A DNA stretch of 64,000 nt, taken from Rhizobium sp. R635 (GTDB lineage: Bacteria; Pseudomonadota; Alphaproteobacteria; Rhizobiales; Rhizobiaceae). The position numbers and the translations under genes are program-made. The DNA is taken from the NCBI RefSeq assembly GCF_002211285.1, contig NZ_LOKX01000005.1, forward strand, positions 124,001 to 188,000, given 5' to 3'. The notes beneath the pieces were generated by a model, which saw only the letters and a list, made by a program, of their open reading frames with translations, searched no databases and was not told the DNA's origin. This document shows, piece after piece, positions 14,127-33,117 of the stretch (its first letter is position 1; every line of letters starts with the position of its first letter).

Positions 14127-17100
14127 ATGTATCGCAACGCTCGCCGGTGGAACGCGCGCTCACTCCTGATGGATTCGTTGTTTCCCCGATGGTTGACCGT
14201 CGGCGGAAAGGCAAAGCCGCGCAAGCCTGCCGATAAGCGCTGGGACAGCGCTCAACTTGCGGCATCCGTGCATACCACGGATGGAAGCAAACATGACGCC
14301 GTCCTTGCCGGCGATCCCTACAGCAGCGCGGCGCTCGATGAGGTTAGACAGGGAGAGGACGTGATCGGTGACGCCGACACCAGCCGCGCAGAGCCGCTCG
14401 TGCCCGACACTTTCACGACACATCGCGAAACGGGGGTTCGAAGCGCCGACACCGCAGCGTCACGGTCCGCCCATGCGGCTGGGCATTTCGAGCCGAGCGC
14501 GGACAAAGTTGCGTTCGGGGCGGCATCGTCGCTTTATCGCACCTATGCAGGAATGAGCCCCATAGCCGGCGACCCTCTGGCTCCGTATCTGCCGCAAAGC
14601 CCGGCACCGACAGCGTCGGCGCAAGGTTCTGCTGCGGTCACCGCCGAGCGGGCGCACTCGGGCAAAGTCGTCATTCTGGAATCAGCTCCGTCGGCGCAGG
14701 CGACTGCCCAACATGCCGGAGCCAATTCACTGGCGTTCGGCATGCCCTTCGGTGTGTGCGGATGCGGCTACTTTACCTCTCCCACGCGGATTCTCGATTG
14801 GGCGCATGGCAGCGCCATGCTTCAACAGGACGGTCAACTGCCGGGAACCAGACTGACCGAGGGGCCGGACTACGTATCGACGATCAAGCGGGCGATCGGC
14901 GCCTCGATCAGCGACCCGCTTCTCGATCGTGACCTGTCCCCCCTCTCCGGCTGGCGCGGAACCGCAAACTGGACGGATTCAACGGTCCTCAACGGATCAT
15001 TGCCAGGCGGCGGAGAGACCGGAACGGGCGGCGCCAAAGCCAATAGTATCGGCATCCTTTCCGGCTCTGTGACGACGCCGCCTTCCCCGCAGCAGCGGTC
15101 GCTGACCACGCAAAATCTGGCGGCCGCGGCCGCAGTCGACAACATAATCGTGCTGGAAAACCAGAAGCAGGGCAACCCGGAGAGCGAGTGGGGTATCGAC
15201 GGCGCCGGCAGCTCCAACATCGAGGGGTTTGCGACCGACATCAGCGTCGACAACGGCAAGACGATCAGCTTCAAGATCAACACGAATTCCACCAATTATC
15301 GGATCGATATCTACAGGCTCGGCTATTATGGCGGCATGGGCGCCCGCAAGGTCGCCACGATGCAGCACACCGGATTGCAGACGCAGCCCAATCCGTTGCG
15401 CAACGCCTCGACCGGCACGGTGGATGCCGGCAACTGGGCGGTCTCGGCGTCGTGGGCCGTACCGGAGGACGCCGTTTCCGGCGTCTATATCGCCAAGCTC
15501 GTGCGTCAGGACGGCACGGCCGGCGAAAATCACATCCCATTCATCGTGCGCGACGACAGCAGCCAGAGTGACATCGTCTTCCAGACCGCAGACCAGACCT
15601 GGCAAGCTTACAACGGCTGGGGTGGCGCAAACCTCTATGGCGGCAACGGTCCGGCGACGGGACAGGGTGCTGGTCGCGCCTACGCGGTCAGCTACAACAG
15701 GCCGATTGCGACCCGTGGCGGCGTCGGCACTTATGCCGCTCCCCAGGACTATCTGTTTGGCGCCGAATATGCAGGCATCTACTGGCTGGAACAGAACGGC
15801 TACGATGTTTCGTACCTGTCGGGTGTCGACGTCGACCGCTATGGCAGCCTCTTGCTCAATCACAAGACCTATATCGATGCCGGGCATGACGAATATTGGT
15901 CGGGACAACAGCGGACGAATGTCGAGGCCGCGCGCGATGCGGGCGTCAACCTCATGTTCTGGAGCGGTAACGAGGTCTATTGGCGCACCCGTTGGGGAAA
16001 TGCCTACAGCGCCGACGGCACGCCTTATCGCACTCTGATCACCTACAAGGAGACATGGGCCGGCAGCGGCATCGATCCTTCCAACGAATGGACGGGCACT
16101 TTCCGCGATCCACGCTTCAGCCCACCCGCCATTGGCGGCGGCAGTCCGGAAAACTCGCTGACCGGGCAGTTGTTCAAGGTCGACGATGTCGGCAGCAATC
16201 TCAGCGCCATCACGATTGGATATGATGACGCCAACCTGCGCTTCTGGCGCAATACGAGCGTCGCCAACCTTCAGCCCGGCCAAACGGCGACGCTTACCAA
16301 GAACTATCTCGGTTACGAGTGGGACGAAGCGCCTGACAACGGCTTCGATCCGGCCGGCCTCGTGAAGCTGTCGTCGACGACGCTTCCGGTCAGCACTTAC
16401 CTGCTCGATTACGGGAACACCACCGGCAATGCGACCGCGACCCATAATCTGACGCTCTATCGCGCGCCCAGCGGTGCGCTGGTGTTCGGCGCCGGCACGG
16501 TCTACTGGACATGGGGACTGAGCGACAATCACGACAATCAGGCGACTCCGACCGATCCCCGCGTCCAGCAGGCAATGGTCAATTTGCTTGCCGACATGGG
16601 CATCCAGCCTGGAACGCTGCAATCCGGGCTCACCGCCGCGACCGCCTCGTCGGACCACACTGCGCCGACCTCCGTCATCACGGTGCCGGGGACGGTGGCC
16701 GTTGGGTCCACCGTGACGATTACGGGCACCGCTGCCGATACCGGCGGCGGGGTCATCGCCGCCGTCGAGGTTTCGACCGACAACGGCGCGAGCTGGCATC
16801 CGGCGACCGGTGATGAGAACTGGACCTACAGCTGGTCGCCGCAGGTCGCCGGCAGCTACACGATCCTGTCCCGCGCCGTGGACGATAACGTCAACCTCGA
16901 AACACCTTCGGCCGGACGCACTGTCACCGTCAGCGGGCCGAGTTATACTTCCCTCTTCGGCGCGTCGACGCCAGCCGTCGTCAATACGAACGATACGTCG
17001 GCCGTCGAGCTCGGAGTGCGCTTCCAGACCTCCATGGCGGGGACTGTCAGCGGCATTCGTTTTTACAAGGGCAGCCAGGACACGGGTACGCATACAGGTT

Positions 17101-31681: not shown

Positions 31682-33117
31682 ACGCGCACGTCAGAAAATC
31701 CAGCGAGAACCTGCCCGTCGCCTCAGACAATGGTTCAGACAAGGGACCACCAGGCAGGAGCGGGCCGCTCGTCGCCCGCCCGCCGCTGCCGCCGGCGATA
31801 GTGGAATTCCAGTCCGACGCCGTCGAGCTGGAAGAACGCGCCCCGCCGCGCGTCGCGCGCATGACGCTCTATTGCGTGACGGCGCTGATTGCCGCGACCA
31901 TCATCTGGGCCTCCGTCTCCGATATCGACGAGGTGGTGATCGCGCCCGGCAAGCTCGTCACCACGCAACCGACCATCGTCGTCCAGCCGCTGGAAACCTC
32001 GATCATCCGCACGATCGACGTGAAGGCCGGCGAGGTGGTGCATGCCGGCCAGACGCTCGCGACGCTCGACGCCACCTTCAGCCAGGCCGATGTCGACCAG
32101 CAGCATGCAAAATTCAGCGCGCTCGATGCCCAGGTGAAGCGCATCGAAGCGGAGCTTGCCGGCGACGACTACCCCGTCATGGCCGGCAACACGCCCGACG
32201 AGATGCTGCAGGTGCAGCTCTTCGGCCAGCGGCGGGCCTTCTACACGGCGCAGCTGCAGAATTTCGAGCAGCAGATCGCCGGCCAGTCGGCGGCACTTGC
32301 CGCGGCCAAGAACCAGGAGGCCGTGCTCATCGACCGGCGCGATACGCTCTCGCAGATCGAAGGCGCACGCGAGCGGCTCTTCAACAAGCAGAGCGGCTCG
32401 CTGATCACGATGCTGGGCTCGCGCGACGCCCGCCTCGACGTCGAATCCGATCTGACCGCCGTCCGCGGCAGGGCCGACGAGGCGGCGCATGCCTATGCCA
32501 AGCTGAAAGCCGACCGCCAGGCCTTCATCGAGGATTTCCGCCGCGCCGCGATGGAGCAGCTGGTGGAGCTGCGCGGCCAGCGCGACATGGCGGATGAAGA
32601 GCTGAAGAAGATGGAGCTGCGCCGCAACATGGTGTCGCTGACCGCACCCGCCGACGCCGTCGTGCTGGATCTCGCCCAGCGCTCCATCGGCTCCGTCGTG
32701 CGCGAAGCCGAACCGATCGTCACCCTGGTGCCGATCAACGTGCCGCTCGAAGCCGAAGTGTCGATCAACACGCGCGACATCGGCCGCATCGCCGTGGGCA
32801 AGGAGGCCCGCATCAAGCTCGACGCCTATCCCTTCCAGAAATACGGCACGGCCTCCGGCGAGGTGCGCACCATCAGCCAGGACACGTTCCTGACCGGCCA
32901 GCAGGACCAGACCGCCACCCCGAGCCAGCCGGCCGCCCCCTTCTTCAAGGCCCGCGTCCTGCTTGCCGACACCCGGCTGAACGCCGCGGATATACCGGTG
33001 CGGCTGCTTCCCGGCATGACGGTGTCGGCGGAAATCAAGGTCGGCCAGCGCACGGTGATCTCCTATTTTCTGTATCCGCTGCTGCGCGGCCTCGACAACG
33101 CGATCCGCGAACCGTAG
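31678..33117 (+). CDS. Type I secretion membrane-fusion protein (HlyD/PrtE family)
   Basis: 479 aa from the ATG that overlaps the ABC-transporter stop (ATGA). A cytoplasmic N-terminal stretch of ~60 residues is followed by one membrane helix (LYCVTALIAATIIWASV), a lipoyl half-motif (VVQPLETSIIRTIDVKAGEVVHAGQ, residues ~100-124), a long alpha-helical hairpin (~145-320), a second lipoyl half (LTAPADAVVLDL) and a beta-barrel ending near the C-terminus. It bridges the inner-membrane ABC protein to an outer-membrane TolC-type channel. The gene is the last of the cluster; the convergent LacI gene ends 45 bp away. Confidence 0.92.
   Translation: MNAHVRKSSENLPVASDNGSDKGPPGRSGPLVARPPLPPAIVEFQSDAVELEERAPPRVARMTLYCVTALIAATIIWASVSDIDEVVIAPGKLVTTQPTIVVQPLETSIIRTIDVKAGEVVHAGQTLATLDATFSQADVDQQHAKFSALDAQVKRIEAELAGDDYPVMAGNTPDEMLQVQLFGQRRAFYTAQLQNFEQQIAGQSAALAAAKNQEAVLIDRRDTLSQIEGARERLFNKQSGSLITMLGSRDARLDVESDLTAVRGRADEAAHAYAKLKADRQAFIEDFRRAAMEQLVELRGQRDMADEELKKMELRRNMVSLTAPADAVVLDLAQRSIGSVVREAEPIVTLVPINVPLEAEVSINTRDIGRIAVGKEARIKLDAYPFQKYGTASGEVRTISQDTFLTGQQDQTATPSQPAAPFFKARVLLADTRLNAADIPVRLLPGMTVSAEIKVGQRTVISYFLYPLLRGLDNAIREP

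Follow-up and report, generated by a model that had tools for sequence, protein, structure and literature searches.

The window analyzed here is a 64,000-nt stretch of the genome of Rhizobium sp. R635, situated on a 199.5-kb contig, and it contains a type I secretion system (T1SS) locus that corresponds to the bltDE system of Rhizobium leguminosarum. Our preferred reading, which we hold tentatively, is that two giant proteins encoded in this locus are predicted substrates of the system and retain the active-site residues of the iron enzyme N,N-dimethylformamidase (DMFase), and that the ZigA-like GTPase encoded beside each of them likely controls the metal of this site. The reading is built on direct observations, namely the gene set and its conservation, the active-site residues of the giants, the grouping of the linked GTPases, and the missing Zur boxes. 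The genes lie on the + strand in the order giant 1, GTPase 1, giant 2, GTPase 2, a 100-amino-acid (aa) protein, an ATP-binding cassette (ABC) transporter, and an HlyD-family adaptor, with successive gaps of 31, 186, 49, 33, and 96 bp; the ABC and HlyD frames overlap (31651 < 31681). This arrangement agrees with the layout described in an earlier note on this DNA, in which a GTPase follows each giant after 31 or 49 bp and the set ends with the 100-aa protein, the transporter, and the adaptor. The note had also called the giants paralogous, which holds because their DMFA regions are 58.6% identical, and its view of the locus as one self-contained module is likewise supported.

The iron ligands of the DMFase large subunit are Y399, Y440, and E521, and mutants in H519, N547, and E657 are inactive (PMC7686228). 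Using a DMFase relative (L064; E = 2.7e-160), we mapped these residues onto an alignment of 30 sequences comprising 12 ordinary DMFA proteins and 18 domains from giants and other DUF4082 proteins. The iron-ligand set of two tyrosines and one glutamate was conserved in 30/30 sequences, both giants included, and the equivalents of H519, N547, and E657 were likewise kept in all 30 (the correspondence to Paracoccus DMFase is given in Table 1). Only 19 of the 422 well-filled columns were invariant, and the naive probability of hitting six of six by chance was 3.6e-9. A profile of the giant domains matched N-acetyl-(R)-beta-phenylalanine acylase at E = 4.8e-13; a predicted structure of the domain from giant 2 was of low quality, with a mean predicted local distance difference test score of 47.3. 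Because the six active-site residues are retained beyond chance and the acylase is matched, the DMFA2_C domain of the giants looks able, judging from its residues, to bind iron and to catalyze a reaction. The earlier description of the giants as metal-dependent is thus upheld at the sequence level, all six residues of a known metal site being retained in both. The DMFase large subunit (6lvb) and the acylase (8huy and 8i5a) belong to the same DMFA2_C family and share the six residues, whereas the giants add VCBS/cadherin and DUF4082 repeats and are encoded in a T1SS locus; DMFase itself has a small subunit.

The same site could be read differently, with DMFA2_C of the giants serving as a ferric-binding or structural domain that takes up Fe(III) itself after export, so that the giant would be an iron-holding adhesin or matrix protein. 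The two-tyrosine site has been likened to the sites of ferric-binding proteins (PMC7686228), and the giants of two genomes that lack a ZigA-like GTPase keep it. However, a pure binding site would not need the non-ligand activity residues H519, N547, and E657, and their retention in 30/30 sequences makes this reading rather improbable.

As a separate observation on this domain, a PPNCSCG insert closely follows the predicted second iron-ligand tyrosine in DMFA2-type giants (window fragment 23140-24969, at its residues 198 and 200). Both Cys were present in 33 of 36 aligned domains, and the position was gapped in three, including giant 1, L151, and L152. To judge from the alignment, the Cys pair may be a second metal site or a disulfide site.

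To describe the conservation of the locus, we scanned genomes for the 100-aa protein and obtained 120 relatives, of which the best 80 loci were kept. The full set of giant, GTPase, ABC transporter, and HlyD was found by homology map in 72 of these best 80 of 120 loci, a count that includes L131 (the map itself gave 71 and scored L131 as lacking the GTPase solely because the 100-aa open reading frame (ORF) had been called too long). The other eight comprised two loci cut at contig ends (L125 and L155), three that kept the GTPase with no giant there (L111, L113, and L118), two with neither (L139 and L158), and L152, in which a 684-aa DUF4082-only frame precedes the GTPase and a DMFA giant follows HlyD. 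The genomes of the last six all encode a DMFA giant, with DMFA2_C and DUF4082 matches close together. A second set of 36 loci, some of which duplicate loci of the first and from which two weak matches to the 100-aa protein (L172 and L173) were left out, contained 24 full loci (of 30 holding the 100-aa protein) and six without the 100-aa protein; five of the 36 had the transporter set without an adjacent giant or GTPase, and one had a giant without a GTPase. Among 199 genomes of the family, the 100-aa protein and DUF4082 each matched 22; the strong matches fell in the same 20 genomes, and the two weak matches on each side did not overlap. All 20 genomes had a DMFA2_C match in a frame of at least 1475 aa. 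Since the genomes are related and the genes mostly linked, these are not 20 independent events. Nevertheless, the components, whose co-occurrence in other genomes the earlier note had made the test of its proposal, clearly occur together.

The least biased count of GTPase-giant pairing used giants found through their own DMFA2_C domain, plus the two in the window. A GTPase was located just downstream of 21 of the 24 evaluable giants, three further giants being cut off. A larger count, based on 101 distinct giants (distinct strings of the last 400 aa, excluding those followed by no more than 1.5 kb of DNA), is biased in that most loci were found through the 100-aa protein; a GTPase adjoined 92 of them. 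Divided by type, DMFA2-type giants had a downstream GTPase in 85/88 cases, and the 13 DMFA1-type giants had one downstream in four cases, upstream in three, and none in six. The types of the partners matched throughout: DMFA1 giants were paired with ZigA1 (7/7) and DMFA2 giants with a downstream ZigA2 (85/85). A further 28 ZigA1-type genes are located upstream of giant 2 and would be partners of giant 1. In three f35 genomes, which we infer to be Bradyrhizobium-like, the giant is situated approximately 20-53 kb from the transporter, and the GTPase is found with the giant (upstream, in reversed order) and not with the transporter. No ZigA-like gene or transporter was present in any of 15 chosen loci containing 17 ordinary (non-giant) DMFA genes. 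Together with the grouping of the linked GTPases described below, these counts support the claim that the GTPases are tied to the giants.

Both GTPases of the window matched cobW and CobW_C in Pfam, and NCBIfam placed them nearest ZigA (NF038288). The equivalog cut-off of the ZigA model, 600, was missed by four linked copies (the two of the window scored 565.6 and 568.3, and those of two relatives 561.5 and 557.5), and the one housekeeping copy scored against it reached 610, above the cut-off. Walker A and CxCC, the COG0523 signature, occurred in every one of the 37 ZigA-like sequences examined, of which 26 were linked and 11 housekeeping. In a tree of these sequences the linked GTPases formed one clade, with a support of 0.504, and ZigA1 grouped with the f35 copies at a support of 0.997, in agreement with the DMFA1 type of the f35 giants. 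With a pattern that we take to represent the Zur box, 8 of 11 housekeeping copies gave a match, whereas none of the 14 linked copies and none of the 114 giants did; 5 of 2000 random stretches matched. The palindromes that the pattern picks out at the housekeeping zigA and at its preceding gene are situated 20-21 bp upstream. Because they form a separate clade, score below the ZigA cut-off, and have no Zur box, the linked GTPases look like zinc-starvation GTPases that left that regulon for the giant module, as far as can be told from their sequences. The housekeeping zigA (G000:C36:223397-224581; L078) lies after a gene that we call ZnuA-like on the basis of its His-rich loop rather than a family search, and each of the two has a Zur-box-like palindrome. 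Two other ideas were set aside: regulation of the operon by zinc starvation was rejected because no Zur box was found, and a role in cobalamin synthesis was rejected on TIGR02475 scores of 155-162 against a cut-off of 332.

Several observations weigh against a fixed partnership in which the GTPase controls the metal of the giant. In the less biased set, 3 of 24 giants (L049, L053, and L059) have no adjoining GTPase, as do 9 of the 101 distinct giants. At E = 1e-40 no ZigA-like match was obtained in G463 or G088, whose giants (L170 and L059, respectively) have the full site, although both genomes have other COG0523 proteins. At L111, L113, and L118 the GTPase remains with the transporter while the giants are encoded elsewhere. 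Furthermore, the node joining all linked GTPases has a support of only 0.504, and ZigA is a named zinc chaperone, whereas the DMFase center is iron. Finally, the general assumption is that T1SS substrates are unfolded during their passage (PMC3034196), and therefore the loading of a folded site in the cytosol is hard to reconcile with export, a tension to which the earlier note had already pointed. Since some giants have no ZigA-like match, others are unpaired, and the GTPase can stay with the transporter, the GTPase would tune the system rather than be essential to it, or its place could be taken by another COG0523 protein.

Part of this evidence also fits the possibility that the GTPases are extra ZigA copies that supply or sense zinc for another client, or for the general zinc economy during production of the surface proteins, and are co-inherited only through their position in the cluster. 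Such copies would account for the placement nearest a zinc chaperone by NCBIfam, for the two genomes that keep giants without a ZigA-like GTPase at the threshold given above, and for the three loci in which the GTPase and transporter stay together away from the giants. However, extra copies of this kind would not be expected to lack the Zur box at 14/14 linked copies when 8/11 housekeeping copies have it, nor to group apart from the housekeeping copies (a grouping with weak support). The GTPase also accompanies the giant, in reversed order, in the three f35 genomes, and none is found near the 17 ordinary DMFA genes. We therefore consider this explanation unlikely.

Both giants are acidic (isoelectric points (pI) of 4.60 for giant 1 and 4.33 for giant 2) and poor in Cys (two and six, respectively), and a composition check, made without a signal-peptide program, revealed no strongly hydrophobic stretch within the N-terminal 70 residues of either. 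RTX proteins are a class of T1SS substrates, and 90% of the predicted ones have a pI of 3.2-4.9 (PMC3034196). Neither giant had a Pfam match to the RTX nonapeptide repeats (PF00353), whereas three distant DMFA2_C/DUF4082 relatives (P0111, P0117, and P0119) do carry them. The C-terminal end of both giants fits FxPQLxA; PQ occupies positions -5/-4 in 88 of the 101 distinct giants, with near variants in the remaining 13, and the distant relatives P0026, P0111, P0117, P0119, and P0123 are without this ending. The best solved relative of the ABC transporter was HlyB (7sgr; 523.8 bits, residues 8-706), and the transporter scored 684.5 bits against TIGR01846, below the curated cut-off of 725.55. The acidic pI, the few Cys, the conserved C-terminal end, the HlyB-like transporter, and the RTX-bearing relatives make the giants likely export substrates of the T1SS. 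The corresponding proposal of the earlier note is thus supported as likely, the giants being acidic, poor in Cys, and without a strongly hydrophobic N-terminus; its label of adhesin was a guess from the repeats and found no support. DUF4082 alone does not imply a T1SS, because a DUF4082 protein with a Sec-type signal is listed in PMC4257694. In two other assemblies (L060 and L061) the contigs end inside giant 1, perhaps due to repeats such as the tandem duplication of about 1.9 kb within giant 1 of the window (Table 1).

The statement that no system with this layout had been described was not borne out. An orthologous locus with the same gene order, in which the giants are predicted substrates, is present on plasmid pRL9 of R. 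leguminosarum bv. viciae / R. johnstonii 3841 (L103 and L178; NC_008379 166305-183596) and was described in 2008 as bltDE (PMC2275737). Its genes carry the tags RL_RS26640 and RL_RS26650 (giants), RL_RS26645 and RL_RS26655 (GTPases), RL_RS26660 (100-aa protein), RL_RS26665 (ABC transporter), and RL_RS26670 (HlyD). Upstream of bltDE, pRL90159 and pRL90161 encode very large proteins with a repeat of approximately 140 aa, which were predicted to be the substrates (Krehenbrink and Downie 2008, PMC2275737); these repeats would be DUF4082. The main text of that paper contains neither 'cobw' nor 'dimethylformamidase' nor the tags pRL90162 and pRL90163, and the portion of it available to us gives no bltDE mutant data. 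Thus, the locus is known, and its enzyme domain and GTPase partners appear to be undescribed in the literature searched. The 2008 paper suggested a bacteriocin role for BltDE from the similarity of the transporter to bacteriocin exporters (PMC2275737), and a 2024 review repeated it (PMC10925705), which would make pRL90159 and pRL90161 exported antibacterial proteins. This role seems very improbable to us, given that, among proteins of solved structure, HlyB is the one to which the transporter is most closely related and that the N-terminal domain of the giants is amidohydrolase-like. The C39 match (PF03412) of the transporter starts at profile position 15 and the HlyB alignment at residue 8; the C39 cysteine position lies outside both alignments, and an ungapped upstream reading puts a threonine there.

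The 100-aa protein matched no Pfam or NCBIfam family. Distant relatives of it lie beside an ABC transporter and HlyD in L232 (G055) and L171 (G245), and neither genome has a DMFA2_C match; the protein is therefore more likely an accessory of the transporter, and these relatives perhaps belong to a wider T1SS accessory family with another substrate. Running counter to a transporter accessory, three Rhizobium-group genomes have a second 100-aa copy that adjoins a DMFA2-type giant (37-40 bp) away from the transporter (L214, 10726-11022; L216, 6731-7030; L218, 10866-11165).

Returning to the reading that we prefer, the giants would be made in the cytosol and recognized through their C-terminal end by the HlyB-type transporter, with which the conserved FxPQLxA ending is consistent. 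If export proceeds C-terminus first, as in known T1SSs, the N-terminal DMFA2_C domain would leave last. While this domain is still inside, the dedicated GTPase would most likely set its metal state: it would either provide the correct ion or exclude incorrect ones, so that the domain remains exportable. The 100-aa protein would belong to the transporter and help to load the substrate. Outside the cell, the repeat-rich shaft would display the domain, which could hydrolyze a molecule of the matrix, the root, or a microbe at an N-acyl or amide bond. A stronger version, which we regard as doubtful, is that the system has a metal checkpoint, at which a GTP-dependent COG0523 chaperone dedicated to the secreted client would decide which metal, if any, occupies the last-exported enzyme domain, such that only chains that are correctly metalated, or metal-free and export-competent, are displayed.

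Like the linked GTPases, ZigA and Nha3, the activator of Fe-type nitrile hydratase, are COG0523 proteins with Walker A and CxCC. The gene for Nha3 adjoins that of the Fe(III) enzyme it serves, which provides a precedent for such a partnership (PMC2770081). The linked copies differ from ZigA in scoring below 600 (the four scored) and having no Zur box (the 14 examined), and from both in that their client would be an exported protein. The Rap proteins of Rhizobium exported by PrsDE likewise use a T1SS, contain cadherin-like repeats, and probably have a surface or matrix location; however, the present locus has its own transporter pair, an N-terminal DMFA2_C domain, an adjacent GTPase, and no RTX family match. 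No earlier description of a GTPase-T1SS pairing was found in the literature searched, which left most subscription journals outside its coverage.

If the preferred reading is true, rhizobia use a giant secreted shaft to present an iron amidohydrolase and reserve a GTPase for it. This would connect research on COG0523 metallochaperones with research on type I secretion, a process believed to transport unfolded chains; the two areas seldom come into contact. The client proteins of COG0523 members are mostly unclear (PMC2770081), and the locus suggests for them a specific candidate whose kind of metal site is known. In addition, an orphan secretion system of a model symbiont, reported in 2008, gains a testable enzymatic function. 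Were the metal checkpoint to exist, it would involve the first metallochaperone known for a T1SS substrate, as far as the literature searched goes. The DMFA domain of giant 2 matched 119 plasmid records, of which 99 were from Rhizobium and nine from Arthrobacter/Paenarthrobacter; because it is carried on plasmids of many Rhizobium strains, the giant domain may bear on life with legumes. A root-attachment role was considered and rejected: the main text of an R. leguminosarum attachment screen (PMC11406972) contains no pRL9 tag, and the CobW-domain gene that it reports, RL4362, belongs to another locus.

Table 1. Features of the T1SS locus in the window (coordinates are those of the window)
Feature	Coordinates	Strand	Description
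Giant protein 1	14127..21131	+	2334 aa; N-terminal variable region, DMFA2_C, 3 DUF4082, 4 VCBS/cadherin-type and 4 He_PIG stretches; C-terminus ...FRPQLVA
DMFA2_C domain of giant 1	15300..16535	+	Residues 392-803; Pfam E 5.1e-98
Six DMFase active-site equivalents, giant 1	15609..16319	+	Y495 (Y399 of Paracoccus DMFase), Y504 (Y440), H587 (H519), E589 (E521), N615 (N547), E731 (E657)
Three DUF4082 domains, giant 1	16965-17390, 18801-19241, 20655-21095 (span 16965..21095)	+	
Tandem duplication within giant 1	17361-19261 and 19215-21115 (span 17361..21115)	+	96.4% identity over 1901 bp
GTPase 1, ZigA-like COG0523	21163..22338	+	391 aa; Walker A; 31 bp after giant 1
Giant protein 2	22525..27837	+	1770 aa; DMFA2_C, Big_7, 4 DUF4082, 3 cadherin-type stretches; C-terminus ...FKPQLAA
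DMFA2_C domain of giant 2	23332..24588	+	Residues 270-688; Pfam E 7.4e-103
Six DMFase active-site equivalents, giant 2	23647..24378	+	Y375, Y384, H480, E482, N508, E618
Four DUF4082 domains, giant 2	25042-25461, 25813-26232, 26596-27027, 27382-27804 (span 25042..27804)	+	
GTPase 2, ZigA-like COG0523	27875..29104	+	409 aa from GTG, alternative ATG 27887; 49-bp gap counted from ATG; Walker A
100-aa protein (P0008)	29138..29440	+	Conserved core, variable linker, conserved C-terminal tail SPNFN
HlyB-type T1SS ABC transporter (bltD orthologue by position)	29537..31681	+	C39-like N-terminal domain
HlyD-family periplasmic adaptor (bltE orthologue by position)	31651..33117	+	TIGR01843 315.6 bits, cut-off 208.65

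With regard to anti-phage defense, for which GTPase 1, the 100-aa protein, and the ABC transporter were searched, the first two were unmatched and the transporter matched ATPase-type models only. Near two f35 giants we observed another large protein (934 aa within the stretch in L229, 1-6135; 1141 aa in L230, 1-6753), and in both cases its own ABC and HlyD-like genes follow it. Among the ten neighboring ORFs searched, those upstream of the locus are polysaccharide genes, encoding an SLBB export protein, a flippase-type protein, an aminotransferase, an epimerase, hexapeptide transferases, and an oxidoreductase, and those downstream encode a LacI-type regulator, a solute-binding protein, and a GGDEF-EAL protein.

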